Origin: Methylobacter sp.
GTDB lineage: Bacteria; Pseudomonadota; Gammaproteobacteria; Methylococcales; Methylomonadaceae
Assembly (NCBI GenBank): GCA_004299305.1
Contig: SCPZ01000103.1
Coordinates: 1 to 50,944 of the forward strand
Length of the DNA: 50,944 nucleotides
Direction of reading: 5' to 3'
The notes under the pieces were generated by a model. It did not search any database and had not been told where the DNA came from. It was given only the letters and a program-made list of their open reading frames with translations. Below, one piece after another: positions 18,256 to 37,658 of the stretch (its first letter is position 1; each line of letters opens with the position of its first letter). A program made the translations under genes and the position numbers.

Positions 18256-18479
18256 AGCATGAAAGTAAGCATAAGCTTACAGTATTTACAGAAACTTACT
18301 ATCTTAATTTGACGTTAGTGGACAATTAAAACATCCATTTATCCACTCTTCCTGACCGATAGATTTTTTATAAAATCTTTATATACTTATCCATCGCGGT
18401 GGAGTTTATCGCTAAAGGTTTAGCCGCCGTTTTTCCAATATTGGGGCAAGCTGCGGGGTGATAAACACATTCCATCAAG

Positions 18480-19184
18480 CTAATTTTCCCCCATGTTTAA
18501 CCGATACCCGACCCCCGCTTCGGTTAATAAATAACGCGGGCGGGCTGGATCGGCCTCAATCTTATGACGCAGTTGTCCCATATAAATTCGCAAATAGTGG
18601 CTGTGTTCAATGTAAGAAGCTCCCCAAACTTTTTCCAGCAATTGCCGATGAGTTACCACGAAACCGGCGTTGCGCACCAATACGCAGAGCAAACGGAATT
18701 CTGTGGGAGTCAAGTGAATCTCCTGCTCTCCGACAAAAACCCGCCGCCGGGTTAATTCTATTTTCAGCTCATCAACCTGAAAACACTCCTGAGCGCCGCC
18801 ACCGGGTAACTTGGCAACGCGCCTGAGCAAGGCTTTGATGCGGGACATCAGTTCTGCGGTGCTGAACGGTTTAGTCAGGTAATCGTCGGCGCCGTTGTCC
18901 AGCGCCTGGGTAATATCGCTTTCTTGATCACGAGCCGAAAGCACTATGATAGGCAACCCGGACCAAGTGCGCAGACGGCGGATAACGTCTTGACCATCGA
19001 TGTCCGGCAATCCTAAGTCAAGAATAAGCAAGCCGGGGTGACGATTGCGGGCGGCAGTCAAGCCCTCGCGTCCGCTTGCAATAGCAAATACCGTATAACC
19101 CTGGCTTTCCAGCGCAGTCGTCAGCAACGTTCGGAGCTGTGGATCATCTTCAATCAGCAAAAGTAATGGGCCTGTGGTTTTCAT
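18480..19184 (-). CDS. KdpE-like response regulator (OmpR family), paralogue 1
   Basis: 234 residues from ATG 19184; the frame is open farther but this start lies five bases after the kinase stop and begins PLLLLIEDDPQLRTLL. Receiver domain with acidic pocket EDD, phospho-acceptor Asp in LLILDLGLPDIDG (about 53), and Lys in DDYLTKPFS. The winged-helix C-terminus has LTPTEFRLLCVLVRNAGFVVTHRQLL and the KdpE-like HSHYLRIYMGQLRHKIE. It closely resembles the second KdpE at 36639, but its operon carries nhaD, a porin and apbE rather than kdpFABC. Confidence 0.9.
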   Translation of the reverse strand: MKTTGPLLLLIEDDPQLRTLLTTALESQGYTVFAIASGREGLTAARNRHPGLLILDLGLPDIDGQDVIRRLRTWSGLPIIVLSARDQESDITQALDNGADDYLTKPFSTAELMSRIKALLRRVAKLPGGGAQECFQVDELKIELTRRRVFVGEQEIHLTPTEFRLLCVLVRNAGFVVTHRQLLEKVWGASYIEHSHYLRIYMGQLRHKIEADPARPRYLLTEAGVGYRLNMGEN

Positions 19185-19188
19185 GGGG

Positions 19189-20737
19189 TCAGCCTTTTTC
19201 TTCCGAATCGATAGTAGGGGGCGCTTCCAACACCGGAAGATGCAGTTGAAACACCGACCCGCCTGGGCTGCGCTTAGTTGCGTGAATTTCACCGCCATGA
19301 GCTTCGACAATGGCGCGGCAAATGGACAAGCCCAAACCGACGCCGCTTTGCGCGCTTTCTGCGTGAATTCGGAAAAACTTGTCGAAAATCTTTTCCTGCA
19401 TGTTCTCAGGGATGCCCAAGCCGCTATCCGCCACGGCTATCGACAGGCCAAACGCTGTGGTTTCAACCGAAATATCGATAGGCAATCCAGGCGGTGAATA
19501 TTTGTCGGCATTATCCAGTAAATTCACCATGACTTGCTGTAACAATACCGCATCGACATAAACCAACGCCTGCCCATCCGGCATAACCACATTGACTTGC
19601 CGACTTGTCAGTTTTTTGTCGAGACGGCGTAACGCGCTGCCGATAATCTCCTCCGGCGCGCACCATTGCCGGTTAAGCACCACTTCGCCCGCTTCCAGAC
19701 GGGCCATTTCCAGAATTTTGGTAGTCAGGTCGGACATGCGCTGGGCTTCCTCACTGATCGCGCTCGCCAATTTTCTTTTCCTGTCCTCATCCAATTGCCC
19801 CGTATCCGTTTCCAAGGTACTGGCGGCGCAGACGATGGCAGCCAGCGGCGTTCTTAAATCATGGGAAATACTGCTGAGCAGGGAGTTACGCAGGGTTTCC
19901 GCCTGCATTTTCAAGGTCGCGTCCTTGGCTTGTTCCGCTAAGCTGGCTCTTTCTAAAGCGTGGCTGATTTGATTGATAAAAGCGCCTAACAGTTCGCGTT
20001 GTTCGGGCAGGAATATTCGGCGCGGATTGACGGACTCAAGCGCCAGCACGCCAATGGTTCCGGTTGAACTATTAAGGGGAATATAAACAGTCGGCACGAT
20101 GCCGGTGCTGCCATACTCCATCTGTCCCTGAGTGAAGACCTGCTGAGCCATGCCTAAATCGACAGCTTGCAAAGAAATCTCCATTGGGGGGGCGATTGGA
20201 TAACGCAACCTGCCATTACGGTCAGGAAATAACAAGGTATTGCGCCCGCCGAATTCAACATGAAGATGCCGCACGCCGATTTCGATGATTTCCTTTTCCG
20301 AACAGGCTTCGGTCAGCTCTTTACTTAATCGGTAAAGAGCAGATACCCGTCGTTCGCGATGTTCGGCGATCCGGGCTTGATGGCGGACACTTGCCGCTAA
20401 ATTGCTGGTTACCACGCCGACCACCAGCATGACCGCCAACCCGACTAGGTTTTCCGAGTCGGCAATGGCGAAAGAAAAAATCGGTGGCGCAAAGAAATAC
20501 GCGAAGGCAGCGGCACTGGTCAGTGAGGCGAGAATAGAAGGCCAAAGACCGAGACGAATAGCGATGAAACACACCCAGCAAATACACCAGCAGGATATTG
20601 CTGGGCGTCAGCATGTCCCGAAACGGCCAGTCGATTAACGTTAGCAGTAAGGGAAAAACGATTCCCCAAAGCCAATAAAGATTGGGAAATTCGCTTCGCT
20701 GACGGTCGAAAGTTTTTTCTGGTTGTACTCTATGCAT
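19189..20737 (-). pseudogene. Short KdpD-like sensor kinase with a 2-nt slippage frameshift
   Basis: The 5' part, from ATG 20737, encodes a basic N-terminus and the first membrane helices of a KdpD DUF4118 domain (PNLYWLWGIVFPLLLTLIDW, then NILLVYLLGV). The 3' frame continues CFIAIRLGLWPSILAS and carries the rest of the four-helix domain, a GAF domain (about 115-265 of the 3' frame), HisKA (SSISHDLRTPLAAIV) and HATPase (GLGIPENMQEKIFDKFFR, GVGLGLSICRAIVEAHGG). The frames meet at a GT dinucleotide tract (AC on the + strand, 20569-20574); one extra GT would join them into about 516 residues. The N-terminal KdpD ATPase and USP domains are absent altogether. It follows apbE and precedes the regulator gene by four bases. 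It may be inactive, phase-variable or a sequencing error. Confidence 0.8.
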
Positions 20738-20741
20738 AAAA

Positions 20742-21752
20742 TCACATAGCCGCAAAGGCTTTGCTCATGTGTTCCGTGAGCTTGTTGTCGCCATCGTAAA
20801 TGAGCAGCACTTTGAGCTGCTCCGTCGCTGCAATTCTAGCCGCTTCCGTTTCCCCCACACAAAGCAGCGCGGTATCCCAAGCATCCGCCCACGCCGGGTC
20901 CTCGTGCATCACTGTGACTGAATGCAATCGGTGGGTCACCGACCGCCCGGTCTTGGGGTTCAGGATATGGGAATAGCTTTGCCCATTCTGCTCGAAGAAA
21001 TTCCGGTAGGTTCCTGCCGTCATAATGGCAATACCCTGTTGTTCCCTGACCTCAATGACTTTCTGGACCGCGCGGCTAAAGGGCGTCGGCGTTTCGACGG
21101 CAACCCGCCAATTATCGCCGTTGGCTTTGCGGCCTTTGACCATCATTTCGCCGCCTATTTCAACCAGGTAATTGTTGACGCCCAATGCTTCCAGGAGCTT
21201 GGCGACCACGCCCACGCTGTAACCTTGCGCGATGGAAGACAAATCGATCTTGAGTTTGGGATCTTTCTTCCTGATACGCTGATTGACCGCATCCACTTCC
21301 AGAAGCCCCATGCCGACATGGGGTAACAGCGCGTCGATTTCGTGCTGGGCAGGAACCCGGTTTTCGTGCTGGGCAAAGCCCCACAGGTCAAACAAAGGCT
21401 TCACGGTCAGGTCATAACAGCCGTCCGAGCGTTCGTAAACGGTCTGGGCGATGGTCAGCAGTTCGGCGATCTCTTTAGATACCAATAACCACGTGGTTCT
21501 TTCCTGCCGGTTAATGCGCGAAATTTCGGAATCTTCGCGGTAATTGGATAATTGGGCATCGATTTCGGCCAGCGTCGTCGAGACTTGGCGGCGAACTTCC
21601 TCCAACGAGGTTGATGTGCCGTCTAAAACCAGCTTGATGTGGTAAGTCGTCCCCTGCGTCTCTCCAGACAACTCGGATTCACGAGATGATTTCTGGCACC
21701 CCGACAGGGCAAAGACAATCAGTAATAGTGCAATCAGCCAATTTATTTTCAT
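20742..21752 (-). CDS. apbE: ApbE, FAD:protein FMN transferase (lipoprotein)
   Basis: 336 residues from ATG 21752, chosen for the AGAGG six bases upstream. A lipoprotein signal LLLIVFALSGC places it on the membrane facing the periplasm. ApbE motifs are GTTYHIK, SDGCYDLTVKPLFDLWGF, LDLSS-type IDLSSIAQGYSV, VEIGGEM, SHILNPKTGRSV and the metal-binding DAWDTALLCVG. ApbE moves FMN from FAD onto Thr/Ser of FMN-binding domains such as NqrB/C and RnfG. No such target protein is encoded in this window. It begins 45 bases after the porin gene ends and its stop precedes the kinase ATG by four bases. Confidence 0.93.
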   Translation of the reverse strand: MKINWLIALLLIVFALSGCQKSSRESELSGETQGTTYHIKLVLDGTSTSLEEVRRQVSTTLAEIDAQLSNYREDSEISRINRQERTTWLLVSKEIAELLTIAQTVYERSDGCYDLTVKPLFDLWGFAQHENRVPAQHEIDALLPHVGMGLLEVDAVNQRIRKKDPKLKIDLSSIAQGYSVGVVAKLLEALGVNNYLVEIGGEMMVKGRKANGDNWRVAVETPTPFSRAVQKVIEVREQQGIAIMTAGTYRNFFEQNGQSYSHILNPKTGRSVTHRLHSVTVMHEDPAWADAWDTALLCVGETEAARIAATEQLKVLLIYDGDNKLTEHMSKAFAAM

Positions 21753-21797
21753 CGTATCCTCTCTAATCTTAATTGCAATGATCACATCACGAGGGCG

Positions 21798-22967
21798 TCA
21801 AAATTGAACGACTGCATCCACTCCCAATAAAACTTGGTCAGTCCGTTGCCCTCCGTCGAAAGGAGCTATTTGCGCATGGCTCCAGTCGTAACGGAGTTCG
21901 GGGCGGATCATCAACCAACTCTTGGGTTTCCAGTTCACTCCGGCGGTCATTGCGTAATAGTTGGCGGCGCCTGCCGAATAGCGGACCCCGTTGTGATCCC
22001 GAAACCATTCACCACGCACACCCAGTCCCCAGGTATCGGCCATCTGATAGGTGAGGTATTGGACGATGGAATACCACTCGGCATTTTGTCCCTGAGCAAC
22101 GGCATTCTGTTGGGTTCCCCGGTCGTGTTGGAGCACGTAATGCCATTTTCCGAGGTTTTGCTGGGCAATTGCCGAGTAATACATCAGCTCAGAACGCTGG
22201 TTTTTGTAGACATCGCCCTGCAACACCGAAAAGGAAACCGTGGTGCCGGTCTTGGCATTGGTCCAGGTCAGTCCGCTCGTGTGGCTCATGGCACCTAAAT
22301 CCCGTACAAAATTGTCCGCGCCCGTTATCGCACCAAAGTTTAGGCTCCATTGCTCGTTTAGCGCATAGCTAAACAGCGCTCCAGTCGCGGTAAAAGGGGA
22401 GGACTTGAAGCTGTAGGAGTGCGAGGAAAAGAAATTCAGTGGCGATGGCACCGACTCGTAACCGATGATGCCGTAAAAATGGCCGAATTTTCCGCTCAAG
22501 CCGTTACCGATCGGCGCAAAAACCTCCACGTAAGCCTGTGGCAGGGCGATGTCGTAAAAACGCAGATCGCGTTGGCTGATCAAACCCATATCCCAATGTC
22601 CGGTTGCCTGGGTATAGCGGGCATCCGTTCCGAACATAAAGTCGAAACGCCCACCTACATCCCAGCTTGTGTCTTTGAAGACGGCTTTTTCGATAAACAG
22701 ATTCAACTGGTACAAATGAAACTCACCGGTTCGGTCAGTCATGGAGACCGGGCCGTTGTTGCGGTCACTCGGATTATCAATATTGTGGTTGATACCGCCC
22801 GCCGCCCAACCGCCGAGATTCAGCCCATAAGCTTGCTGTCCGGTCCAACTGGACGCATCTTTTCCAGACAGTTCGGAAATCAACCCAGCAGGCGTGCCAT
22901 CTGCAATCGCTACATTACTTAGTATCAAAATACTGCAAACACTTAATAAGGAGTTTCGTATGGACAT
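21798..22967 (-). CDS. Outer-membrane beta-barrel porin (BBP2-like)
   Basis: 389 residues from ATG 22967, where TAATG joins it to the nhaD stop; the frame extends upstream within nhaD but that part has no signal peptide and is rejected. Signal peptide SLLSVCSILILSNVAIADG, then GLNLGGWAAGGINHN and alternating strands with FHLYQLNLFIEKAV, RLDF-like RFDFMFGTDA and a final Gln-Phe (VDAVVQF). The pattern is that of a family of large bacterial porins of unknown solute. Genetic coupling to an inner-membrane Na+/H+ antiporter is unusual. Confidence 0.8.
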   Translation of the reverse strand: MSIRNSLLSVCSILILSNVAIADGTPAGLISELSGKDASSWTGQQAYGLNLGGWAAGGINHNIDNPSDRNNGPVSMTDRTGEFHLYQLNLFIEKAVFKDTSWDVGGRFDFMFGTDARYTQATGHWDMGLISQRDLRFYDIALPQAYVEVFAPIGNGLSGKFGHFYGIIGYESVPSPLNFFSSHSYSFKSSPFTATGALFSYALNEQWSLNFGAITGADNFVRDLGAMSHTSGLTWTNAKTGTTVSFSVLQGDVYKNQRSELMYYSAIAQQNLGKWHYVLQHDRGTQQNAVAQGQNAEWYSIVQYLTYQMADTWGLGVRGEWFRDHNGVRYSAGAANYYAMTAGVNWKPKSWLMIRPELRYDWSHAQIAPFDGGQRTDQVLLGVDAVVQF

Positions 22968-24412
22968 TAGAATTTGCCTCCATTTATAAAAAAAAGCGTA
23001 ACGATGCTGGCGAAAAAACCTAATAAAATGGCGGGCATCCAACGCAAATGCAGGGTAAAAGTATAGCCTTCGCCTTCTTTCATATTGCCTTTCATTAATC
23101 CCAATACATGCAGCGCAGGCGCAGAACCAATCGCCAACAAACTGCCGCCGACACCCAAGGTTAGGGTTAATAACAGCCATTGTCCAATGGGAAGGTTGGG
23201 ATGCATATTTAACACGGCAAACATCAAGGTGCCGTTATCAATGGACGAGGATGACAAGCCGATCAAGATATTGGCTACGGTGGGACTGATTTCGGTAAAC
23301 AAATAATGTGCCATGGCATCCAAATAACCTAAAAAGCTCAGTGCTCCGACAATCATCATCGCACCATAGAAAAACAACAAGGTATCCCAATCGACACCGG
23401 CAATGCACTTGAAAACATCGAAACCTTTATTCGAATCACTAGGTTCTTGTGTTGCAGGTATTAAAAAATGACTCAATCTTTCAGTTTTAGTTAAATAATA
23501 AGCAAAAAATTGTAATATCGCTAAACCCAGCATCATTCCTGCTATCGCGGGCATATCAAGAAATACGTTCGATAAAATGGTAATGCTGAAGGTGAGGATA
23601 AATATAAAAATAACCCGCTTGCTGCCGCGCTTTAAAACCGGTGTTTCTTTGGCAAAGGCAGGCGTTTCTTTATTAACCGAAAAATACATAATGGATGCAG
23701 GCACTACAAAATTCACTATACAGGGAAGCGTTAAGGTAAAAAATTCAGTGAAATGCAGCGCGTTTTGTTGCCAAACGAAGAAGGTGGAAATACCGCCTAA
23801 AGGACTCATGGTACCGCCGGCATTAGCGGCGACCACGGCATTCAAGCCTGCTAAACCAACAAATCTAGGGTGATCTTTACCTATCACTAATATGATATAC
23901 CCCATCAACAAGCCCACCGTTAAGCTGCTGATTACTGTGGACAGTACAAAAGCCAACACACCGGTAATCCAAAATAATTGCCGATAACTGTACTGCCTAT
24001 TGGCTAATACAATGCGCAAAGCGTCGAAAATGCCCCGTTCGGTCATGGCATTTAAAAAAGTCATCGACACAGTAATAAACAGAAATAACTCCGCATAAGC
24101 CGTTAAATTACTTTGGAAACCGACGGCGACATTTTTTGCTGTGCCATATTCCACGCTATAAAAAACAAATATGGCAAGCCAGATTAATGCCGAAGCTAAT
24201 ACCATCGGTTTTGCTTTACTCAATTGATGCAAATCTTCGGTCATGGCGATGGCATAGGCAATGACAGTGACCGCAACCGCAAAATAACCGACAAAGTGGT
24301 TTTTTAAATCCAATTGTTGTGCAGCATCTTCTGCAAAAGCGAAAGAAGGAAAAAACAAAAGAAATGCTAAAACAAAAAAATGACGAATGTTGAGCTGGGG
24401 GAATTTTTTCAT
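22967..24412 (-). CDS. nhaD: NhaD-type Na+/H+ antiporter
   Basis: 481 residues with about 12-13 membrane helices, preceded by a cleavable-looking leader (FFVLAFLLFFPSFAFAEDAA), a known NhaD feature. Family signatures include LNAVVAANAGGTMSPLGGISTFFVWQ (residues split over helix 5-6), LIGLSSSSIDNGTLMFAVL and GVGGSLLAIGSAPALHVLGL. It belongs to the ion-transporter superfamily and exchanges internal Na+ or Li+ for external H+, mainly at alkaline pH. Its ATG overlaps by four bases the stop of a 57-codon ORF, and its TAA overlaps the porin ATG, so the three should be co-translated. Confidence 0.92.
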   Translation of the reverse strand: MKKFPQLNIRHFFVLAFLLFFPSFAFAEDAAQQLDLKNHFVGYFAVAVTVIAYAIAMTEDLHQLSKAKPMVLASALIWLAIFVFYSVEYGTAKNVAVGFQSNLTAYAELFLFITVSMTFLNAMTERGIFDALRIVLANRQYSYRQLFWITGVLAFVLSTVISSLTVGLLMGYIILVIGKDHPRFVGLAGLNAVVAANAGGTMSPLGGISTFFVWQQNALHFTEFFTLTLPCIVNFVVPASIMYFSVNKETPAFAKETPVLKRGSKRVIFIFILTFSITILSNVFLDMPAIAGMMLGLAILQFFAYYLTKTERLSHFLIPATQEPSDSNKGFDVFKCIAGVDWDTLLFFYGAMMIVGALSFLGYLDAMAHYLFTEISPTVANILIGLSSSSIDNGTLMFAVLNMHPNLPIGQWLLLTLTLGVGGSLLAIGSAPALHVLGLMKGNMKEGEGYTFTLHLRWMPAILLGFFASIVTLFFINGGKF

Positions 24413-25147: not shown

Positions 25148-25178
25148 TTTTTACAATTTTTTTATAGTGTTTTTTATA
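25148..25178 (+). promoter_or_regulatory. Putative KdpE-type operator upstream of the PepSY/K+ channel pair
   Basis: TTTTTACAATTTTTTTATAG (25148-25167) contains half-sites TTTACA and TTTATA starting 11 bases apart, and a third TTTATA begins at 25173. The same 20-base string with two substitutions lies upstream of kdpF at 27341. The layout matches what I recall of the E. coli KdpE site (two T-rich half-sites separated by five bases). Binding is inferred. Confidence 0.5.
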
Positions 25179-25302
25179 GCATGTAACTAGTTGCTTGATG
25201 ACCTGTTTTACACGAACGGCTGTTTTTGAAGATCAATACAGCATCAATTGGGCGGGATTAATTCAAGCAGGTTCCCTACAAATTTCTTAGGAAACACTTT
25301 AT

Positions 25303-25629
25303 ATGAATAGCAAGCTTATTATCTTAGCATTGAGTCTTATGGCTCAAACTGCATTTTCAAACATAGCTCATTCAGCGGATACTTTACCCGGAGCGCCCGA
25401 TAGCGCGAATGTAAACATTACCAACCGCTATGCGCTGCCGCCCAGTAAGGTTAACATCGAACCCTGCCAACGGGAGGCGCTGCGTCTGCATCCGGGAGTG
25501 ATTGAAAAACAACGAATACTGCATCGGCACGGGAATTTCTTGGTACGGTTTCAGGTACAGGCGGATGACGGTTTTGACTGGTTTATGTTGTGCGACTTGG
25601 CAACAAGGAAGATCATTGATGCATTCTGA
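25303..25629 (+). CDS. Small periplasmic PepSY-like protein
   Basis: 108 residues. Signal peptide MNSKLIILALSLMAQTAFSNIAHSA, then a ~75-residue domain with EALRLHPGVIEKQRILHRHG and FLVRFQVQADDGFDWFMLCD, resembling a single PepSY unit (helix, then strands). Two cysteines (in EPCQREA and MLCDLA) could form a disulfide. Function unknown; it precedes the K+ channel gene by 108 bases and may share its promoter, which carries the KdpE-like site. Confidence 0.6.
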   Translation: MNSKLIILALSLMAQTAFSNIAHSADTLPGAPDSANVNITNRYALPPSKVNIEPCQREALRLHPGVIEKQRILHRHGNFLVRFQVQADDGFDWFMLCDLATRKIIDAF

Positions 25630-25737
25630 TGGATTTGCCCGGATTAGCTCCATAAATCCCGTTCTCACATGCTATCGAACGGATGATTTGACATTACAAT
25701 TGGCTGAATAACAAACTAAATTAAGAGGACAAAACTT

Positions 25738-26259
25738 ATGCATTGGCTAACTAAATTTCATAACGCGATTCAATGGGGGAACACCCTCAGGTTCGATCTC
25801 TTCAGAGCCAAAAACCTGGAATACCTGGTCTTGCTTGCAACCATGGTGACCTTGGCTGTCGGATTGGCGCTTTTCCTGATTGATCCCAATATCAAGTCGC
25901 CCATGGACGGCATTTGGTCCGCCTGGGTGACCATGACCCATGTGGGCTTCGGCGATGTGGTTCCGGTCTCCTTTTTTGGGCGTTTGCTGGCCGCCGGGCT
26001 GATTTTGTTTGGACTGGTATTTTTTTCACTGTTCACCGCCATGGTTTCGGTGGCCTTGATCGGCAGAAATATACATGCATTAGACGTGGAAGACGCCGGG
26101 CAAATAGAGCCGGAAGTCGGCTATATTCAAAACGGGGAAGACCGGATTCTCGCTGAGTTAGCCCGATTGCACGAGCGTATGGCGGCTCTGGAGAAGCTGT
26201 CATCATTGAACACGGATCAAGGTCGTTCAGTGCCCGGCCCCAATGTAGAACAGCCATGA
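25738..26259 (+). CDS. Two-transmembrane potassium channel family protein
   Basis: 173 residues. TM1 (LEYLVLLATMVTLAVGLALFLI, about 29-50), a pore helix with filter TMTHVGFGDVVP (about 67-78), and TM2 (LLAAGLILFGLVFFSLFTAMVSV). The filter reads T-H-V-G-F-G-D instead of the usual T-x-x-T-V-G-Y-G-D, still compatible with K+ selectivity. The C-terminal tail is acidic, then helical (ILAELARLHERMAALEKLSS) and could be a short coiled-coil for tetramer assembly. No RCK/TrkA domain is attached. It sits between nhaD and kdp genes. Confidence 0.85.
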   Translation: MHWLTKFHNAIQWGNTLRFDLFRAKNLEYLVLLATMVTLAVGLALFLIDPNIKSPMDGIWSAWVTMTHVGFGDVVPVSFFGRLLAAGLILFGLVFFSLFTAMVSVALIGRNIHALDVEDAGQIEPEVGYIQNGEDRILAELARLHERMAALEKLSSLNTDQGRSVPGPNVEQP

Positions 26260-26280
26260 ATAATCCTGAAAAGAGCAGTT

Positions 26281-26416
26281 GAGCCACGGATGGACACAGA
26301 TTTAGACAGATAAACGATAGCTTACATTAATGCTTTAAGACAACCATTGGGTGAAATACTCACATTGCATAACCAATTGTTTTATCAGTGATTATCGGTG
26401 TAAATCTGTGGCTAAC
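26281..26416. repeat. Diverged 'CACGGATGGACAC' inverted-repeat element
   Basis: Left arm GAGCCACGGATGGACACAGA and right arm ATCGGTGTAAATCTGTGGC pair imperfectly. It appears related to the elements at 6841-6915 and 29291-29402 and fills most of the spacer between the channel gene and the corA remnant. Confidence 0.5.
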
Positions 26417-26535
26417 TGATTTTTTTAGGATAATTCAGCTCAGGTCAAACGACTGGAGTAAAACCGGCTTCTGCGTCCTCTTTTAAAATGCCGAAAATTA
26501 TTGGCGAGATCCCAACCATGCGGAGGGAGAAACGT

Positions 26536-26838
26536 GTGACCGAACAAATTAACAATAGTATGGTCATGAAATGCGTGGCCTATCAAAACGGCGTCAATAT
26601 CGGCGATGTAACTATTGAAGACATCAGCGAAGTGCTGAAACAGGAAGACACCTTTGTCTGGTTGGGTTTGCGTGAAGCAAACAGCGAGCTGCTAGTCAAA
26701 ATCCAGCAGGAGTTCGGGTTGCATGACTTGGCTATCGAAGATGCCTGCGCGGCACATCAACGCCCGAAAATCGAGGAATACGGCGAATCGCTGTTCATGG
26801 TGCTGTATTTGCGTCTGAAAAAGGCAGGCTGGCTGTAA
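26536..26838 (+). pseudogene. CorA Mg2+/Co2+ transporter, N-terminal remnant
   Basis: From GTG 26536 (GGAGG about nine bases upstream) or ATG 26488. About 100 residues match the start of the CorA cytoplasmic domain: VAYQNGVNIGDVTIEDISEV, TFVWLGLREAN, EFGLHDLAIEDACAAHQRPK and IEEYGESLFMVLYLR. The reading frame then stops. The rest of the funnel domain and the two C-terminal helices with GMN are missing from this window, so it cannot transport. The next element downstream is MITE copy A at 26932, a possible partner in the deletion. Confidence 0.8.
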
Positions 26839-26931
26839 ATCCAAACTGCATACATGATGCGTAAGACTATCATCATGAACAACGAACGTTTAAATCACCA
26901 TCAACTCAATAAATAATCCCCCACAGCTATC

Positions 26932-27172
26932 GTTCCCACGCTCCGGCGCTCGTCTTTATACACAAGTCTTTAAAAGCACGTCATTCCGGCAGGGATTGCC
27001 GGAATCCAGAGCACAAGGATGTGAATGCTCGTCATTAGGCAATTTCGCGTTGCAAGACGTGTTGCCAGCGTTGGCATTGCCATCCATGGCATCTGGATCC
27101 CGGCAATCCCTGCCGGGATGACGGTGTCTCGCAGACACTTGTGTATAACGATGAGCGCCGGAGCGTGGGAAC
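26932..27172. mobile_element. MITE with ~35-bp terminal inverted repeats, copy A
   Basis: The left end GTTCCCACGCTCCGGCGCTC and the right end (GAGCGCCGGAGCGTGGGAAC) are reverse complements; the terminal repeats run on through TTTATACACAAG with two mismatches. A second nested pair (CGTCATTCCGGCAGGGATTG / its complement at 27092-27122) lies inside. There is no ORF with transposase motifs. Other copies are at 33533, 37364 and 43561. Confidence 0.8.
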
Positions 27173-27340
27173 TATTCGGGCTGGGGGGTTATTTATTGCG
27201 AGTTACCTTACGAACCGCGTCGAACAGTATCAACCTGTAGGTTGAGCTTGCGAATTCCAATATTTGTCGCTTCGCTGTGTTGGAGTTCGTGCCTTGTGCA
27301 ACAAGCTAATTTTGCAACAAATTCGATAATCTACCGGCGA

Positions 27341-27360
27341 TTTTTACAGTTTTTTTATAA
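27341..27360 (+). promoter_or_regulatory. Putative KdpE operator upstream of kdpF
   Basis: TTTTTACAGTTTTTTTATAA carries TTTACA and TTTATA half-sites 11 bases apart, 49 bases before the kdpF ATG. This matches the position and layout of the E. coli KdpE site and recurs at 25148. A -10/-35 pair is expected within 27360-27408, but I do not see a decisive one. Confidence 0.55.
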
Positions 27361-27408: not shown

Positions 27409-27498
27409 ATGACTTTTATCTACGGCTTGAGCGGCTTGCTCGCATTCGCTTTATTCATTTATCTGCTGGTGGCGTTATTTTACCCGGAGAAATTTTAA
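27409..27498 (+). CDS. kdpF: KdpF, K+-transporting ATPase small subunit
   Basis: 29 residues (MTFIYGLSGLLAFALFIYLL then VALFYPEKF), a single hydrophobic helix ending with the YPEKF-type C-terminus of KdpF. AGAGAGG lies upstream, and its TAA overlaps the kdpA ATG (TAATG). KdpF stabilises the KdpABC complex in the inner membrane. Confidence 0.93.
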   Translation: MTFIYGLSGLLAFALFIYLLVALFYPEKF

Positions 27499-29240
27499 TG
27501 ACTACGAACGGCTTATTTCAAATCACTTTATATTTTGTCGCCCTGTTGCTGTTGGCTAAGCCATTGGGCGTTTATATGGCGGCGGTGTATGAAAATCGCC
27601 CGTTACTTCTTAAGCGCATCTTGGGGCCGTTGGAAGCCGGGTTTTATCGTTTGAGCGGCGTTAACCCTGAACAAGAGATGAGCTGGAAAAATTACGCCGC
27701 CGCCCTGCTGTGGTTTAACTTGTTCGGCGGGCTGGTTGTATTTGCATTGCAAATGCTGCAAGCCCATTTGCCGCTGAACCCGCAACAGATGGCCAATGTA
27801 ACGATCGATTCGGCATTCAACACTGCGGTCAGTTTTGCCACCAACACCAATTGGCAGGGTTACAGCGGCGAAGTGACGATGAGTTATTTGACCCAGATGC
27901 TCGGACTAAGTGTGCAAAACTTTGTATCGGCAGCCACCGGCATGGCGGTTTTGGTGGCGATGATACGCGGCTTTTTGCGCACTCATGCGGACGGCATCGG
28001 CAACTTCTGGGCGGACCTGACTCGTGGCACTTTATATATCTTGCTGCCGTTGTCGTTTTTGATAGCGGTGGTATTGGTCGGCCAAGGCGTGGTGCAAACC
28101 TTCAAACCTTACCAAACGATTCCGTTAGTTGAACAGGTCAGTTCGGCAACGGAAACTGCGACACAAACCTTGGCACTAGGACCTGCCGCCTCGCAAATCG
28201 CCATTAAACAACTGGGAACCAACGGCGGCGGCTTTTTTAACGCCAATTCGGCGCATCCTTTCGAAAACCCAACCCCCTTGGCCAATTTCCTGGAAATGCT
28301 GTTACTGATACTGATACCGGCAGCGCTGTGCCATACTTTTGGCACGATGGTCGGCGATCCACGCCAAGGCTGGGCCATTTTGTCGGCAATGACGCTGGTG
28401 CTGGTCAGCCTGCTCTTCATCACCGTCGGTTATGAGCAAGGCGGCAACCCTGCGTTGGCTGCACTTGGCGTCGAACAAAACGTTGGCCTCGGCCAGTCCG
28501 GCGGCAACATGGAAGGCAAGGAAACCCGTTTCGGCATCGTCAATTCGGTGATCTGGGCGACGGCTACAACTGCGGCATCCAACGGTTCGGTCAATTCGAT
28601 GCACGATTCTTATACGCCGCTCGGCGGCATGATCCCTATGTGGCTGATTCAGTTAGGTGAAGTCATTTTCGGCGGCGTCGGTTCCGGCCTATACGGAATG
28701 CTGATTTTTGTGCTGATTGCGGTGTTTGTCGCCGGTTTGATGATAGGGCGCACACCGGAATATCTCGGCAAAAAAATTGAAGCTTTCGAGATAAAAATGG
28801 CGGCTATCGTTATTTTAATTCCGGCCATCTTTATTCTGGGTGGCACAGCGCTGGCAATCATGATGGAAGCAGGAAAAACAGCGGTTGCCAATCCTGGCGC
28901 GCATGGCTTTAGCGAAATTCTTTATGCATTCTCTTCCGCCGCAGGCAACAACGGCAGCGCTTTTGCCGGTCTTAGCGCCAATTCGCCGTTTTATAACGTC
29001 GCTTTGGGCATTACGATGCTGTTCGGACGCTACGGAATCATTATTCCGGTGCTCGCTATTGCCGGTTCATTAGCGGCTAAAAAGACCGTGCCAACCACCG
29101 TCGGCACCTTGCCTACGCATACGCCGTTGTTTGTGATGCTGCTGATCGGCACCGTAGTTTTGGTCGGTGCGTTGACTTTTGTACCCGCATTGGCTTTAGG
29201 GCCGGTGGTTGAGCATTTAATCATGGGCTCCACAAAATAA
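27498..29240 (+). CDS. kdpA: K+-transporting ATPase subunit A
   Basis: 580 residues (E. coli 557), about ten membrane helices. It has four repeated pore segments with Gly-rich filter loops, including TAVSFATNTNWQGYSGE, TNGGGFFNANSAHPFENPTP and AAGNNGSAFAGLSAN. KdpA is the channel-like subunit that selects K+ and passes it to KdpB. It is translationally coupled to kdpF; an inverted-repeat element of about 112 bp separates it from kdpB, which is unusual for this operon. Confidence 0.97.
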   Translation: MTTNGLFQITLYFVALLLLAKPLGVYMAAVYENRPLLLKRILGPLEAGFYRLSGVNPEQEMSWKNYAAALLWFNLFGGLVVFALQMLQAHLPLNPQQMANVTIDSAFNTAVSFATNTNWQGYSGEVTMSYLTQMLGLSVQNFVSAATGMAVLVAMIRGFLRTHADGIGNFWADLTRGTLYILLPLSFLIAVVLVGQGVVQTFKPYQTIPLVEQVSSATETATQTLALGPAASQIAIKQLGTNGGGFFNANSAHPFENPTPLANFLEMLLLILIPAALCHTFGTMVGDPRQGWAILSAMTLVLVSLLFITVGYEQGGNPALAALGVEQNVGLGQSGGNMEGKETRFGIVNSVIWATATTAASNGSVNSMHDSYTPLGGMIPMWLIQLGEVIFGGVGSGLYGMLIFVLIAVFVAGLMIGRTPEYLGKKIEAFEIKMAAIVILIPAIFILGGTALAIMMEAGKTAVANPGAHGFSEILYAFSSAAGNNGSAFAGLSANSPFYNVALGITMLFGRYGIIIPVLAIAGSLAAKKTVPTTVGTLPTHTPLFVMLLIGTVVLVGALTFVPALALGPVVEHLIMGSTK

Positions 29241-29435: not shown

Positions 29436-31499
29436 ATGATCAATAAAAATCATACGCAACAGCTATTTAATAGCGAAATTCTGTGGGATGCGTCAGGCGA
29501 TGCCTTGCGCAAACTGGCGCCTCAACAACAATGGAAAAATCCGGTGATGTTCGTGGTCTATATCGGCAGTTTGCTGACTACCGGGCTATGGCTGTGGGCG
29601 TTGTTTTCCGGTGACAGCACGCAAACCGGCTTCATGTTGGCCGTGACCTTCTGGCTTTGGTTCACGGTGTTGTTTGCCAACTTCGCCGAAAGCGTCGCCG
29701 AAGGCCGCAGTAAAGCGCAAGCGGCATCATTGCGCAACGCCAAACGCGACATCATGGCGAAGAAACTGGACAAACCGCAGTACAGCACCGATTACGCCAA
29801 AGTCGCCAGCACCACATTACGGCGCGGCGACATAGTGCTGATCGAAGCAGGCGATTTTGTCCCCGCCGACGGCGAAGTCATCGAAGGTGCGGCCAGTGTT
29901 GATGAAAGTGCGATTACCGGCGAAAGCGCGCCGGTGATTCGCGAATCGGGCGGGGATTTCAGTTCGGTAACCGGCGGCACGCGGGTATTATCCGATTGGT
30001 TGGTGGTACAGGTCGTCGCCAATCCCGGCGAAGCATTTCTTGATCGTATGATTGCGATGGTGGAAAGCGCATCAAGGCAAAAAACGCCTAATGAAATCGC
30101 CCTGACTATTTTGTTGGTGGCATTGACGCTGATTTTTCTGCTGACCACCGTGACGATGCTGCCGTTTTCACTATACAGCGTGGAAATAACCAAAGCCGGT
30201 ATGCCGGTGTCGATCACCGTACTGGTGGCGTTGTTGGTTTGTCTGATTCCTACCACCATAGGCGGCTTGCTGTCCGCTATCGGTGTTGCAGGCATAGGAC
30301 GAATGATGCAGAAAAACGTCATAGCCACCTCGGGACGGGCTATTGAAGCAGCGGGCGATGTGGATGTGTTGCTGCTGGATAAAACCGGAACCATTACGCT
30401 GGGTAACCGTCAAGCCTCGGATTTTTTTCCGATTGGCTTGACCAGTGAAAGAGAATTGGCCGATGCCGCGCAACTGGCGACGCTGGCCGATGAAACGCCG
30501 GAAGGCCGCAGCATCATTATTCTTGCCAAGCAGAAATTCGCAATTCGGGAGCGCAATATTCACGAGCTGGATGCAACGTTTGTCGCCTTTAGCGCGCAAA
30601 CCCGGATGAGCGGCGTCAATATCGGCGAGCGTCAAATCCGTAAAGGCGCTGTCGATGCGATACGCAGCTTTGTCGAAGCCCAAAATGCCAAATTTCCTGA
30701 GGAAGCGATACGCATCGCCGATGTTGTAGCACGCCGGGGTAGTACGCCGCTGCTGGTTGTCGACGGCGGGCAAGTGTTGGGGGTTATTGAGCTGAAAGAC
30801 ACGGTCAAGGGCGGCATTAAGGAGCGTTTTGTCGAGCTGCGCAATATGGGCATTAAAACCATTATGATCACCGGCGATAACCGTTTGACTGCGGCAGCGA
30901 TTGCAGCCGAAGCGGGCGTCGATGACTTTTTGGCCGAGGCGACGCCGGAAGCCAAACTCAAGCTGATCCGCGAACACCAGGCGGAAGGCCGTTTAGTGGC
31001 GATGACCGGCGACGGCACCAACGATGCGCCTGCTTTGGCTCAGGCCGATGTAGCGGTGGCGATGAACTCGGGCACCCAGGCGGCCAAGGAAGCCGGTAAC
31101 ATGGTCGATCTCGACTCCAACCCCACCAAGCTGATCGAAATCGTTGAAACCGGCAAACAAATGCTGATGACGCGCGGCGCATTGACCACGTTTAGCCTGG
31201 CTAATGACTTAGCCAAGTATTTCGCGATAATCCCGGCAGCGTTTGCCAGTACTTATCCGCAACTTGGCGTGTTGAATATCATGGGGCTGAGCAGCCCCGC
31301 CAACGCGATACTTGCGGCGGTTATTTTTAACGCCTTGATTATTGTCGCCTTAATTCCGTTGGCGTTAAAAGGCGTGACTTATAGGCCGCAAAATGCAGCC
31401 GTATTGCTGCGCAATAATTTGCTGGTTTACGGTGTCGGCGGCCTTATTGTGCCGTTTATAGGGATTAAGTTGATTGATTTGGGGTTGGGGGTGTTGTAA
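29436..31499 (+). CDS. kdpB: K+-transporting P-type ATPase subunit B
   Basis: 687 residues (E. coli 682). Actuator motif TGESAPVI (about 159-166), phosphorylation site [13 protein letters not shown] (about 311-323), nucleotide-binding [12 protein letters not shown]-type segment, and hinge [16 protein letters not shown]. Six to seven membrane helices. KdpB hydrolyses ATP to drive K+ taken in by KdpA. The start has a weak leader: it lies just after the inverted-repeat element. The next gene in the canonical operon, kdpC, is displaced 1.4 kb downstream. Confidence 0.97.
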
Positions 31500-32037: not shown

Positions 32038-32262
32038 ATGATCGCATTAAGACAAATCCAATCCATAAAGGGTGACGTGATGACCGTCAAGTTACCATCC
32101 GAATTTAAACATTACCAACAGGCGGAAATCATTGTTCTGCCCGTGGAAGAGAGTCTCAAGCAACCCGATACAGAGGCATTTATCCAACGTTTCGCCGGGG
32201 CGATTCCCGATTTTCCAGAGTTAGATGCACTGCTGCCGGAAACTCGGGAAGAGTGGGAATGA
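32038..32262 (+). CDS. VapB-like antitoxin
   Basis: 74 residues from ATG 32038 (GAAGGA upstream). The N-terminal MIALRQIQSIKGDVMTVKLP is a probable short beta-strand DNA-binding part; the acidic C-terminus (FAGAIPDFPELDALLPETRE) would thread into the toxin's active site. Its TGA overlaps the toxin ATG. It neutralises the PIN RNase and probably represses its own promoter. Family assignment rests on position and length. Confidence 0.7.
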   Translation: MIALRQIQSIKGDVMTVKLPSEFKHYQQAEIIVLPVEESLKQPDTEAFIQRFAGAIPDFPELDALLPETREEWE

Positions 32263-32660
32263 TGTATTTATTAGACACCAACACGTGCATTGCGTTCCTG
32301 AAAAATAATCCGGCGGTTATCGCCAAAATAAGAACGGTAGGCATGGAAAAGCTAATGCTCTGCTCGGTAGTAAAAGCGGAACTCTGGTTTGGCGCATGCA
32401 AAAGCGAACGGATAACAGCGAATCAAGCCTTGTTAAAAGAATTTTTCGCTGAGCTTCCAAGCGCGCCTTTTGATGATAATGCGGTAACGCATTACGGTGA
32501 AATCCGGGCTTTGCTGACGAAAACAGGCAAACCGATTGGCGCCAATGACCTTTTGATTGCCGCAACGGCCAGAGCCAATCGAGTCTCTTTAGTGAGCCAT
32601 AACACCAAAGAATTTATCCGTGTCCCGGATTTACTGCTTGAGGATTGGTTAGACCCATGA
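32262..32660 (+). CDS. vapC: VapC-type PIN-domain ribonuclease toxin
   Basis: 132 residues from ATG 32262 (a Met pair at 32259/32262). PIN motifs: MYLLDTNTCIAFLKNN with the first catalytic Asp, SVVKAELWFGACKS with the Glu, and GANDLLIAATARAN with the third acidic site, then LVSHNTKEFIRVPDL. VapC toxins cleave initiator tRNA or rRNA. It overlaps the antitoxin stop and its own TGA overlaps the next ORF's ATG. The module lies between kdpB and kdpC. Confidence 0.9.
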   Translation: MYLLDTNTCIAFLKNNPAVIAKIRTVGMEKLMLCSVVKAELWFGACKSERITANQALLKEFFAELPSAPFDDNAVTHYGEIRALLTKTGKPIGANDLLIAATARANRVSLVSHNTKEFIRVPDLLLEDWLDP

Positions 32661-32937: not shown

Positions 32938-33513
32938 ATGACCAATCACATCAAACCCGCAATACTCATGCTCTTGCTTTTTACTGCATTAACCGGCGTT
33001 GCCTATCCATTGGCCGTCACATTCTTCGCACAAATCATGTTCCCTAATCAGGCAAACGGCAGTTTGCTTGACAGTAAGGGGCAACAACTCGGCTCTGAAT
33101 TAATCGGCCAAACATTTAGCCGTCCCGAGTATTTTTGGGGACGGCCTTCAGCGACTTCGCCCACTTCCTATAACGGCGGAGCATCCAGCGGGTCCAATCA
33201 AGGCCCTACCAATCCTGCTTTGATAGACGCCGTTCAGGCGCGCATTAAAACGTTACGCCATGCAGACCCTAGCCATTCGAAAGCTATACCTGTGGATTTG
33301 GTCACCGCCTCGGCCAGCGGGCTTGATCCTCATATCAGTCCTGCCGCCGCCGCCTATCAAATCAGCCGTGTTGCGCAGGCCAGACACATGTCGCCTGACC
33401 AAGTGCGTGAATTGGTTGAGCGTTACACACAAGCCCGGCAATGGGGCATATTGGGCGAGCCGCGAGTGAATGTGCTGAAATTAAATTTGGCGCTGGATCA
33501 GGGGCTTAAGTAA
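32938..33513 (+). CDS. kdpC: K+-transporting ATPase subunit C
   Basis: 191 residues (E. coli 190), start after AAGGAG. N-terminal membrane anchor ([20 protein letters not shown]), then [20 protein letters not shown] and [18 protein letters not shown], with [19 protein letters not shown] and a C-terminal NVLKLNLAL. KdpC assists nucleotide binding by KdpB. Because the TA insert and hairpins separate it from kdpB, it may need its own promoter, which I cannot locate in 32864-32937. Confidence 0.97.
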
Positions 33514-33532
33514 TGAGTTTAATGCCGCCATC

Positions 33533-33811
33533 CTTCCCACGCTCCGGCGCTCATTTTTATACACAAATATTTCCAAGCACGTCATTCCGGCAGGGATTGC
33601 CGGAATCCAGAACACAGGGATGTGAAACTTTCAGCTGGCACTCAAGCACCGGTAAAACCGCCAAGTTACTGTCTATGGCAGTGGATATCGAAATCCATCT
33701 CGATATAACGACTCCAAGACACACTTGTTACCTGCTTCGGCATTGCCATCTATGGCTTCTCGGCAATCCCTGCCGGGATGACGGTGTCTCGCAGACACTT
33801 GCGTATAAAAG
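33533..33811. mobile_element. MITE copy B (right end truncated)
   Basis: It starts CTTCCCACGCTCCGGCGCTC and shares the nested CGTCATTCCGGCAGGGATTG core with copy A. The right terminal repeat stops after CTTGCGTATAAAAG, lacking the last ~20 bases. The central 100 bases are different from copy A. It separates kdpC from kdpD. Confidence 0.75.
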
Positions 33812-33901
33812 TTACCCAAAGGGCGAGTTACTAAATCAATACAACATATTGTTTTATTTAGTATATTTCGTTATTTTCGTGGATAAACTGCGGTTTTTAG
33901 G

Positions 33902-36646
33902 ATGAACGATACCCGACCCGACCCAGACGCCCTCCTCGCCCGCGTAGAGCGCGAGGAAAACCAACGACGACGCGGACGACTCAAGGTTTTTTTCGGCGCG
34001 GCAGCCGGTGTAGGCAAAACCTACGCGATGCTGCTGGCCGCCAAAATCAAACGGGCTGAAGGCGTCGACGTGGTGGTTGGGCTGGTGGAAACCCATGACC
34101 GGCAAGAAACCGTCGCGGTATTACAAGGCCTGGATGTGCTGCCGCCCAAACTAATCAAACATCGAGGTACGGTGCAGCGCGAGTTCGACCTGGACGGAAC
34201 CTTAAAACGTCGCCCAACCTTGGTTTTGGTGGACGAATTGGCGCACAGCAACGCGGTCGGCTGCCGTCATCCCAAACGTTGGCAGGATGTAGAAGAATTA
34301 CTGAATGCCGGAATCGACGTTTACAGCACCCTGAATGTCCAACATTTGGAAAGCCTCAACGACGATGTCAGCCAGGTAACCGGGATACAGGTTAGGGAAA
34401 CCGTGCCGGATACGGTATTCGAGATGGCCGATGAAGTCGAGTTGATTGACTTGCCGCCCGATGAATTATTGCTGCGACTCAAGGAAGGCAAGGTTTATGT
34501 GCCTCAACAGGCGGAACGGGCGATGCGCAGTTTCTTCCGCAAAGGCAACCTGATTGCCTTGCGCGAGTTATCGTTACGCCTCACCGCCGATCGGGTCGAC
34601 GCGCAAATGCAAGATTACCGTGACATCCACGCGATACGCGATGTTTGGCAGGTCGGCGACCGGATCTTGGTTTGCATCGGTCCCAATGCTATCGCCGAAC
34701 GGCTGGTGCGTGCCGCCAAGCGGCTTGCTACCAGTCTTCATGCACACTGGATCGTGGCCTACGTGGAAACGCCGGAGCTGCAACGCCTGCCTGCCGAACG
34801 CCGAGATGAGGTATTGCGGGTGCTGCGTTTTGCCGAGCAGCTGGGCGCCGAAACGGTGACCTTGTCAGGCCCCGATATGAGCAAGGAAATCCTGAGTTTT
34901 GCCAAAAGCCGCAACGCCACCAAGATAGTCTTGGGCAAACCCGGTCGCCGGGGTTGGAAGCGATGGATGCTGGGCTCTGTCGTCGACACCCTGATCACCG
35001 AAGCGCACAACATTAATGTCTATCTGCTGGGTAGCCCGCGAGGCGAAGACGCCTTAGAGCAAAAAGCGCGTAAAGAAACGCCCGGAGCAAAAGTGTTACG
35101 TTCCAGTTATTCCAAGGGCCTAGCTAAGCGACGCTGGATAAACTGGACTTGGGCGGTCGCTATGACCGCTTGCACGAGTTTTCTTGCCTGGTTAATGTCC
35201 GGGAAATTCGAGCTGGCTAACTTAGTCATGGTTTATTTGCTGGGCGTGGTTTTTATGGCGGCCCGCTTTGGTCGAGAGGCCTCCATCTTGACCTCGGTGT
35301 TGAGCGTTATCGCATTCGATTTCCTCTTTGTAAAGCCGGTTCATTCCTTTGCGGTTGCCGATGCGCAGTATTTAGTGACCTTTGTCATTATGCTGCTGGT
35401 GGGGATAATCATCAGCCACCTGACCAGCAATATGCGCTCCCAGGCAAAGATAGCCTCGCATCGGGAACGCCGCGCCAATGTTCTTTACGCGTTGAGCGAA
35501 GACCTGGCGGCCAGCCGTACCGTAGCGGAAACCGCTAGAATTAGCGCACGTCATATTAAAGATGAGTTCGGCGGCGCCAGCGTATTGCTGTTCCCGGTCG
35601 ATGACAACAAGATCGTCTACCCGCTGGACTCGCCCGCTCCCGAATCCCTGCGCGGTTGCGATCTCAGCGTGGCGCAATGGGTTTTCGACCACGACCAGAT
35701 AGCGGGGCAAGGCACCGATACCTTACCCGGCGCCGACGCGGTGTTTTTCCCTCTGTCCGGTTTTCGCGGCGTGATCGGCGTGCTGGCTTTACGCGCCGCC
35801 AATCTGCGCCGGGTGTTTTTACCCGAACAACGTCGACTATTGGATACCTTTATCAGCCAGATTGCCCAAACCATTGAACGGGTGCGTTTCGCCGATGAGG
35901 CGCAGCAAACGCAGCTACGCATGGAATCCGAAACCTTGCGCAATTCCTTACTCAGCGCCATTTCCCATGATTTACGCACGCCATTGGCATCTATAGTCGG
36001 CGCAGCCAGCACTCTGGTGGAAGAGGACGCCCATCTTACCCCGCTGGATCGGCAAGAGTTGAGCCTGACCATCTATGACGAAGCGCTACGCATGTCGAAC
36101 CTGGCCAATAATATCCTAGATATGGCCCGTTTGGATGCAGGACAAGCGCCGCTGAACCGGCAATGGTATCCGCTGGATGAAATTGTCGGCGGCACCTTGA
36201 CGCGAATGCGCAAGCGGCTTGACGAGCGAATCGTTAATACCAAACTGCCGGATGACCTCTGCCTGGTGCGTGTCGATGCGGTGTTGATCGAACAGGTGCT
36301 GATCAACTTATTGGAAAATGCCTGCAAATATACGCCGAAGGGCAGTCCCATCGACATTATTGCCGAGTTTTCCGCCCATACCCTAAAGGTGACGGTAGCG
36401 GATCGCGGCCCCGGCATCCCGCCGGGTGAAGAGGAAAAACTGTTCGATAAATTCTACAGGGTACACCGGGAGGGCACGCAAAGCGGCGTCGGTCTGGGCC
36501 TAGCCATTTGCAAGGCGGTCATTATTGCGCATGGCGGCGTTATCGGCGCCGCTAACCGGCTTGGCGGCGGGGCGCAATTCTTTTTCCTGCTTCCTGTAGA
36601 CGAAGCGCCGCCGCAACTGGCAGCGGAGCAACTGCAAGATGAATAA
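33902..36646 (+). CDS. kdpD: Sensor histidine kinase KdpD
   Basis: 914 residues (E. coli 894). N-terminal KdpD domain with Walker A GAAAGVGKTYAMLLAAK (about 26-42) and Walker B-like TLVLVDELAHSN, then a USP-like domain (ILVCIGPNAIAERLVRAAKR). Four membrane helices of DUF4118 follow (MVYLLGVVFMAARFG through VIMLLVGIIIS), a GAF domain, HisKA (SAISHDLRTPLASIVGAAS) and HATPase (DRGPGIPPGEEEKLFDKFYR). It senses low K+ or turgor and phosphorylates KdpE. Its stop overlaps the kdpE start by eight bases. Domain order is complete, in contrast to the short KdpD-like kinase at 19189. Confidence 0.97.
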   Translation: MNDTRPDPDALLARVEREENQRRRGRLKVFFGAAAGVGKTYAMLLAAKIKRAEGVDVVVGLVETHDRQETVAVLQGLDVLPPKLIKHRGTVQREFDLDGTLKRRPTLVLVDELAHSNAVGCRHPKRWQDVEELLNAGIDVYSTLNVQHLESLNDDVSQVTGIQVRETVPDTVFEMADEVELIDLPPDELLLRLKEGKVYVPQQAERAMRSFFRKGNLIALRELSLRLTADRVDAQMQDYRDIHAIRDVWQVGDRILVCIGPNAIAERLVRAAKRLATSLHAHWIVAYVETPELQRLPAERRDEVLRVLRFAEQLGAETVTLSGPDMSKEILSFAKSRNATKIVLGKPGRRGWKRWMLGSVVDTLITEAHNINVYLLGSPRGEDALEQKARKETPGAKVLRSSYSKGLAKRRWINWTWAVAMTACTSFLAWLMSGKFELANLVMVYLLGVVFMAARFGREASILTSVLSVIAFDFLFVKPVHSFAVADAQYLVTFVIMLLVGIIISHLTSNMRSQAKIASHRERRANVLYALSEDLAASRTVAETARISARHIKDEFGGASVLLFPVDDNKIVYPLDSPAPESLRGCDLSVAQWVFDHDQIAGQGTDTLPGADAVFFPLSGFRGVIGVLALRAANLRRVFLPEQRRLLDTFISQIAQTIERVRFADEAQQTQLRMESETLRNSLLSAISHDLRTPLASIVGAASTLVEEDAHLTPLDRQELSLTIYDEALRMSNLANNILDMARLDAGQAPLNRQWYPLDEIVGGTLTRMRKRLDERIVNTKLPDDLCLVRVDAVLIEQVLINLLENACKYTPKGSPIDIIAEFSAHTLKVTVADRGPGIPPGEEEKLFDKFYRVHREGTQSGVGLGLAICKAVIIAHGGVIGAANRLGGGAQFFFLLPVDEAPPQLAAEQLQDE

Positions 36647-37340: not shown

Positions 37341-37363
37341 ATGCGTCGGCAGTTTTTTTCATC

Positions 37364-37507
37364 CTTCCCAAGCGCCGACGCCCATCGTTATACACAACGC
37401 TGTCCCGTCTCCGGGGAATCCCCCTGTAGGGCGTGCCGACATCTCTGCTGGAATGACGCTATCTCCCGCAGACTTGTATATAAAGACGAGAGCTGGAGCG
37501 TGGGAGA
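37364..37507. mobile_element. MITE copy C
   Basis: It begins CTTCCCAAGCGCCGACGCCC and ends CTTGTATATAAAGACGAG followed by GCTGGAGCGTGGGAG, the family ends with several changes. It is shorter than copies A and B (144 bp) with a decayed core. It follows kdpE directly. The remainder to 37658 has a nine-base tandem repeat (see 37528) and no gene. Confidence 0.65.
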
Positions 37508-37527
37508 CCGGCGTAATATCTTCAAGT

Positions 37528-37554
37528 CCTTCATGCTCTTCATGCTCTTCATGG
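37528..37554. repeat. Tandem CTTCATGCT microsatellite
   Basis: Three copies of a nine-base unit (CTTCATGCT) in a row, downstream of kdpE and downstream of the leftward kinase gene end. No coding role seen. Confidence 0.6.
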
Positions 37555-37658
37555 TAAAAATAAATGACATTTTTGGGAATCGGCACCCGATGAAGGTTGG
37601 GCGATCTATTAATTTAGCCATTGCCGGTAATGAGGGACCTGATGCCCATCCTACCGGG

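Follow-up and report, generated by a model that had tools for sequence, protein, structure and literature searches.

In the window analysed here, i.e., a stretch of 50,944 nucleotides from the methanotroph Methylobacter sp. of the family Methylomonadaceae (contig SCPZ01000103.1 of assembly GCA_004299305.1), one and the same T-rich 20-mer stands before kdpF, the first gene of the cluster encoding the K+ pump KdpFABC and the KdpD/KdpE regulatory pair, and before two genes encoding a small PepSY-like exported protein and a two-transmembrane (two-TM) K+ channel. With a probability of about 0.82, these boxes would be operators of a KdpE regulon comprising (i) the pump, (ii) a periplasmic protein linked to the pump, (iii) the K+ channel, and (iv) the importer Kup, encoded on another contig. 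A first, sequence-only reading of the window had proposed a KdpE-type operator common to kdpF and the PepSY/channel pair, a proposal now supported by the rarity of the box in the genome, the conservation of its position in the genus and the membership of both genes in kdp clusters elsewhere. The inclusion of a K+ channel and a PepSY-like protein in the predicted regulon is likewise supported, and this regulon appears larger than first seen because kup is preceded by the box as well.

As a textbook two-component system, KdpDE is generally presented as having a single target operon. The window holds kdpF, kdpA, kdpB, kdpC, kdpD and kdpE, all in order, as in the known KdpFABC/KdpDE system; unlike in the textbook case, the cluster in the Methylomonadaceae also comprises a PepSY-like gene, often directly 3' of kdpC or in frame with it, and a K+ channel gene. 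In contrast to other genera of the family, the genus of the window (G000, G001 and G019 among the genomes examined) has the PepSY-like gene and the channel ahead of kdpF. The finding is a variant of the known KdpDE/Kdp system with unusual members and not a new kind of system. Through its predicted operator, the pump would be linked with a K+ channel, with a further importer and with a small protein of the periplasm, one that some relatives have as a fusion with KdpC. Two questions thereby become testable, namely for what reason K+ shortage would lead a cell to produce a K+ channel as well, and whether Kdp has a partner in the periplasm that was overlooked in Escherichia coli.

The box and its specificity

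The 20-mer TTTTTACARTTTTTTTATAR occurs on the + strand at 25148-25167 (box 1) and 27341-27360 (box 2), without mismatch at either position, just as the sequence-only reading had placed it; at up to three mismatches, the window contains no further match (expectation 0.02), and two matches were obtained in 0 of 100 shuffles. Following the kdp box definition given in PMC3264566, both boxes consist of two 6-bp TTTAYA direct half-sites with 0 mismatches, TTTACA at 25150-25155 and TTTATA at 25161-25166 for box 1. The half-site starts lie 11 bp apart in both (25150/25161 and 27343/27354), as had been claimed, and the 5-bp spacers, ATTTT and GTTTT, are AT-rich. Box 1 starts 155 bp from the ATG of the PepSY-like gene (25303), and box 2 ends 48 bases before the ATG of kdpF. 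The third half-site announced for box 1 does exist as a + strand TTTATA at 25173-25178, with an offset of 12 bp from the second half-site and not 11; among five aligned promoters of the genus, it reads TTTATA in four and TTTGTA in the remaining one.

The comparison with the E. coli KdpE box made in the sequence-only reading proved right. In the published site (PMC3264566), 5 bp separate the half-sites TTTATA and TTTACA, and the sequence upstream of kdpF in E. coli K-12, TTTTTATACTTTTTTTACA, fits the 19-mer pattern TTTTTAYANTTTTTTTAYA with 0 mismatches. The E. coli site thus shares with the window boxes the two TTTAYA direct half-sites, the 5 bp spacer, the T-rich make-up, the location before kdpF and the 19-mer pattern. 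It differs in half-site order, TTTATA then TTTACA in E. coli but TTTACA then TTTATA in the window, and in being described before kdpFABC, unlike the Methylobacter box which recurs before the PepSY/channel pair and kup.

Specificity was assessed in the 4.49 Mb genome from which the window derives and in a set of 23 genomes of the genus, the reversed pattern serving as control. In its own genome, only three sites have at most one mismatch to the 20-mer, i.e., those before kdpF, the PepSY/channel pair and kup (contig C137). Across the genus, the 19-mer at up to one mismatch gives 20 sites, 12 before kdpF, three before the PepSY-like gene, one before kup and four elsewhere, the latter all with one mismatch (one inside an open reading frame (ORF), the others in G012, G002 and G004). 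All 14 exact 19-mers precede kdpF, PepSY or kup, and an exact half-site dimer is present before kdpF in 14/14 genus genomes with a KdpA match. That the two boxes are some generic T-rich element of promoters, resembling an UP element or a site for a nucleoid protein and unrelated to KdpE, is scarcely credible: T-rich sites of like make-up do become as frequent as the reversed control once mismatches are allowed, but every exact site stands before a K+ gene and the layout of the box equals that of the E. coli KdpE site studied in PMC3264566.

The full T-rich box is specific; the bare half-site rule alone is not. The genome scan for TTTAYA-N5-TTTAYA suggested in the sequence-only reading returned 10 exact sites versus seven for the reversed pattern, and the rule was rejected as a regulon finder. 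Besides the three K+ sites, these ten comprise three inside ORFs of at least 150 codons, three intergenic dimers adjoining unrelated genes (Pfam searches on four neighbouring ORFs), and one in the window at 18367-18385. The latter, TTTATAAAATCTTTATA, is an exact dimer on the + strand overlapped by a one-mismatch dimer on the - strand, some 470 bp before a gene for a Tsx-like porin, and is probably due to chance since such dimers number 10 in the genome versus seven in the control; a 17-mer identical to it precedes a box gene in G117 (L149:15549). Regarding weaker matches to the box in the same genome, the two-mismatch sites on C120 and C133 were discarded as lying inside ORFs, and the one at C61:1209, ending some 520 bp upstream of a DarP gene, was taken as chance. 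Five of the 11 three-mismatch sites are inside ORFs (L007, L009, L011, L012 and L015), two are intergenic, before a tRNA synthetase gene (L010) and a fructosamine kinase gene (L014), and the remaining four are at L008, L013 and, twice, on C125.

Genes preceded by the box

The decisive evidence comes from comparison with relatives. The presence of the box follows the position of the PepSY-like gene. When this gene lies ahead of kdpF, a half-site dimer with at most one mismatch is found within 250 bp in 6/8 cases; when it lies behind kdpC, such a dimer is found in 0/16, the best having four mismatches (for one of the 16, in G149, the contig begins here and kdpC is not visible). Among 1039 control windows, 1.4% reach one mismatch. 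The count omits the truncated gene of G008, the fusions and a number of weak or edge cases. The regulon would thus be kept while the operon changes, most genes outside the operon having a box and genes inside having none. Between the PepSY-like gene and the channel, which are on the same strand, the gap is 108 bp and no terminator is predicted.

The third box, on C137, is followed 181 bp on by kup (L185:4120-6039), whose product scores above the cut-offs of TIGR00794 (597 versus 539.6 bits) and K_trans (625.1 versus 24.8 bits) and below that of NF008015 (762 versus 883). In G004, G008 and G009, kup sits directly behind kdpE, with gaps of 116, 76 and 91 bp, respectively; in the genome of the window, it stands alone. 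Its 60 bp upstream are 81.7% identical to the kdpF promoter of G004, with 27 of 34 bases matching after the box, and this promoter is clearly of the kdpF type. A 155-bp repeat, 83.9% identical to window positions 26263-26417, lies between the box and kup. Among 30 kup loci scanned, this is the only one with the 19-mer at fewer than four mismatches within 500 bp upstream, and the second kup of the same genome (C15) had no site in the genome scan. In G025 (L216), kup is just ahead of kdp and a two-mismatch box lies between kup and kdpA.

A kdpF-type promoter before a lone kup implies that copying or operon decay does occur here, and box 1 could by the same token be left over from a copied kdpF promoter or from a former operon junction, functionless today. 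This is very unlikely. The sequence that follows box 1 bears no resemblance to the kdpF promoter, yet it is conserved, together with the box, in five members of the genus; in the alignment of these five PepSY promoters with a good box, conservation begins at the box, the DNA before it being almost devoid of any. The idea of the PepSY promoter as a copy of the kdpF promoter was dropped as the flanks gave no match. Conservation of this kind speaks for the KdpE reading.

In relatives, the predicted regulon may extend further. A protein of 120 amino acids (aa) weakly resembling the N-domain of the IS110 transposase (E 4e-4; 20.6 bits versus a cut-off of 29; e.g., L161:1294-1662) has a box-like site with 0-2 mismatches within 200 bp before its gene in 18/19 family genomes that carry it, and with 0-1 mismatches in 16/19, the background in 980 windows being 3.1% and 0.9%, respectively; the sole gene lacking the site is a fragment. 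The channel directly follows this gene in nine of these genomes, and two sites 32 bp apart sometimes occur upstream. It is likely a further KdpE target in those relatives; it was not found in the genome of the window.

The PepSY-like gene (25303-25629, + strand, 108 aa) is present in 46/237 family genomes (E up to 1e-5). It lies directly behind kdpC in 23 of them and is taken as fused to the adjoining KdpC, given the same open-frame length, in six. In nine (eight from the genus of the window plus a weak hit in G080), it precedes kdp and has the same orientation, KdpC being on another contig in three and not found in five. In G071, a single ORF of 276 aa matches Pfam KdpC over residues 6-188 with the PepSY-like part after it, and in G228 and G095 the two parts are within one frame; in G085, G097 and G086, fusion is taken from frame length only. 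For the KdpC-PepSY fusion, a structure prediction run without an alignment was of poor quality (pLDDT 44) and was discarded. Because of this fusion and the adjacency to kdpC, we propose that the PepSY-like protein acts together with KdpC on the periplasmic side of the pump. The further suggestion that Kdp has in it a so far unrecognised subunit or regulator, acting in the periplasm via KdpC, and that the methanotroph pump is built and switched on together with a dedicated His-filter channel as one K+ system of pump and channel under KdpE control, stands at slightly less than even odds.

As to the identity of this protein, two Cys are invariant among 24 aligned sequences. The PepSY label given in the sequence-only reading is weakly supported. 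The structure model (pLDDT 73.6 overall, with a block at 89-97 from residue 51) consists of a helix and four strands, and its top three Foldseek rows are 4exr, a putative lipoprotein, and YpmB, with probability 1.00 and weak E-values of 0.04-0.12; both have the same helix plus four strands and presumably represent the PepSY-type fold. A Pfam search of the window protein gave no PF03413 match at E up to 0.1, and two relatives reached 17.1 and 17.6 bits, below the cut-off of 24. The two invariant Cys, the linkage to KdpC and the subthreshold Pfam scores set the protein apart from 4exr and YpmB.

The channel gene (25738-26259, + strand) encodes a protein of 173 aa above the cut-off of Ion_trans_2 (PF07885; 44 versus 22.5 bits), like the two-TM channels KcsA and the Lmo2059 protein; the best PDB profile match is 4h33, and KcsA is matched as well. 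The canonical selectivity filter of K+ channels is of the TTVGYG type. The window channel departs from it, having THVGFG within TMTHVGFGD, where a His replaces the second Thr. This His (residue 68), which corresponds to KcsA Thr75 in the alignment with Lmo2059, is invariant in 23/23 aligned channels; the position is occupied by Met in G121 and by Thr in more distant relatives. The channel occurs in 52/237 family genomes (E up to 1e-15), and its surroundings, examined in 36 of these 52 with the window included, contain a kdp cluster in 21 and no kdp gene in 15, a count referring to the stretch seen, some contigs being short. Outside the genus of the window, 12/18 kdp-linked channels are located between kdpC and kdpD, and for the other six, kdpC or kdpD is off the stretch. 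When a collection of 84,980 species was scanned with two peptide patterns, by which distant relatives are missed, 48 loci were obtained, 44 titled as Methylococcales or members thereof and four as "uncultured proteobacterium." A literature search for the filter string gave nothing relevant.

Regulators and proposed mechanism

The best PDB match of KdpE (36639-37340) is 4kny, a KdpE, presumably the E. coli structure. A paralogue, RR2, is encoded on the - strand at 18480-19310 (longest frame, start uncertain), next to HK2, a KdpD-like kinase without KdpD and Usp domains (19189-20574, - strand). Both are part of a minus-strand block (18480-24412) with genes for an NhaD antiporter (398.3 versus 80 bits), a BBP2 porin and ApbE, and similar blocks lie beside kdp in G001, G006 and G151. 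Since the residues that correspond in alignment to R193, R200 and T215 of E. coli are kept in both KdpE and RR2 (assuming a two-residue offset in numbering), a sharing of the sites by the two paralogues, as first suggested, is possible. A stronger version, in which RR2 mainly or also reads the boxes and the channel answers another signal via HK2, e.g., Na+ or pH as suggested by the adjoining NhaD gene, draws on the three retained residues and on the location of the RR2 gene, 5.8 kb away from box 1 and within a block whose antiporter gene also neighbours kdp in other genomes. It seems unlikely, though, as E. coli kdpF carries the same box, so that KdpE is enough for it, as RR2 is below the NCBIfam KdpE cut-off (271.1 versus 325), and as none of the RR2 block genes in the window was seen to have a box a short distance upstream. 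Control by KdpE itself is favoured here.

Several observations weigh against the KdpE reading. In number, the sites are not enriched over the reversed pattern, with 17 versus 15 at up to three mismatches in the own genome and 20 versus 19 at up to one mismatch in the genus; as such, the evidence for the box rests on locations and not on counts. Two PepSY-like genes ahead of kdpF, in G010 and G011, have no good box (three mismatches). When the gene lies behind kdpC, the DNA before it consists largely of coding sequence, in which an AT-rich box would in any case be less expected. The channel also has a second branch, corresponding to the 15 of 36 genomes above, that is not near kdp. KdpD is under its NCBIfam cut-off (1025.7 versus 1123). 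Finally, PMC7657598 describes kdpFABC as the only target of E. coli KdpE, although 31 ChIP-exo peaks are reported there. For a methanotroph, PMC6119699 lists Kdp, Kup, Trk, Kch and Kef systems but, in the passages seen, not this arrangement, and a literature search leaving aside subscription papers and most preprints found no description of a KdpE-controlled channel, a KdpC-PepSY fusion or a THVGFG filter.

Under the KdpE reading, low K+ probably switches on the pump, the channel with its periplasmic partner, and the second importer together. When K+ is scarce, KdpE would be phosphorylated by KdpD, and phosphorylated KdpE would bind the two direct half-sites of each box and activate two adjacent units, namely kdpFABC on the one side and the PepSY-like gene with the two-TM K+ channel on the other; through the third box, the same activation would apply to kup on its separate contig. 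We infer KdpE binding, activation by low K+, co-transcription of the PepSY-like gene with the channel, and function from the DNA. Induction of a K+ channel by K+ shortage seems paradoxical. The channel may be a co-induced passive path for K+, either for uptake powered by the membrane potential or for relief once K+ becomes available again.

The kdp cluster and its neighbourhood

All genes of the cluster are on the + strand. The product of kdpF (27409-27498), of 29 aa, is recognised from its translation, followed by kdpA (27498-29240; PF03814), kdpB (29436-31499; PF00122 and PF00702, named from position and family matches), kdpC (32938-33513; PF02669), the sensor kinase gene kdpD (33902-36646; PF02702 at 316.9 bits) and the response regulator gene kdpE, whose product scores 326 against the NCBIfam KdpE cut-off of 325. 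Two further ORFs, 33513-33905 and 37341-37793, had no match in the other loci searched and were dropped as candidate accessory genes.

Between the channel and kdpF lies a shortened CorA-like gene (26488-26838; 116 aa), the product of which retains the N-terminal part plus roughly 10 residues at the C-terminal end. At the same place, Methylobacter tundripaludum SV96, whose locus L076 likewise runs from box via PepSY-like gene and channel to kdpF, has a CorA-like gene of 339 aa (L076:5646-6665), and CorA-like genes are beside kdp in other genera as well. A VapBC-like toxin-antitoxin pair (32038-32660) is found between kdpB and kdpC, VapC scoring 135.8 bits versus a cut-off of 140 and the antitoxin being named from position only. 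Repeat elements surround the kdp region (26263-26417 and 26929-27175 in the window), one of them being the repeat that recurs near kup on C137 (L185:6030-6173), and may have helped move or delete kdp genes.

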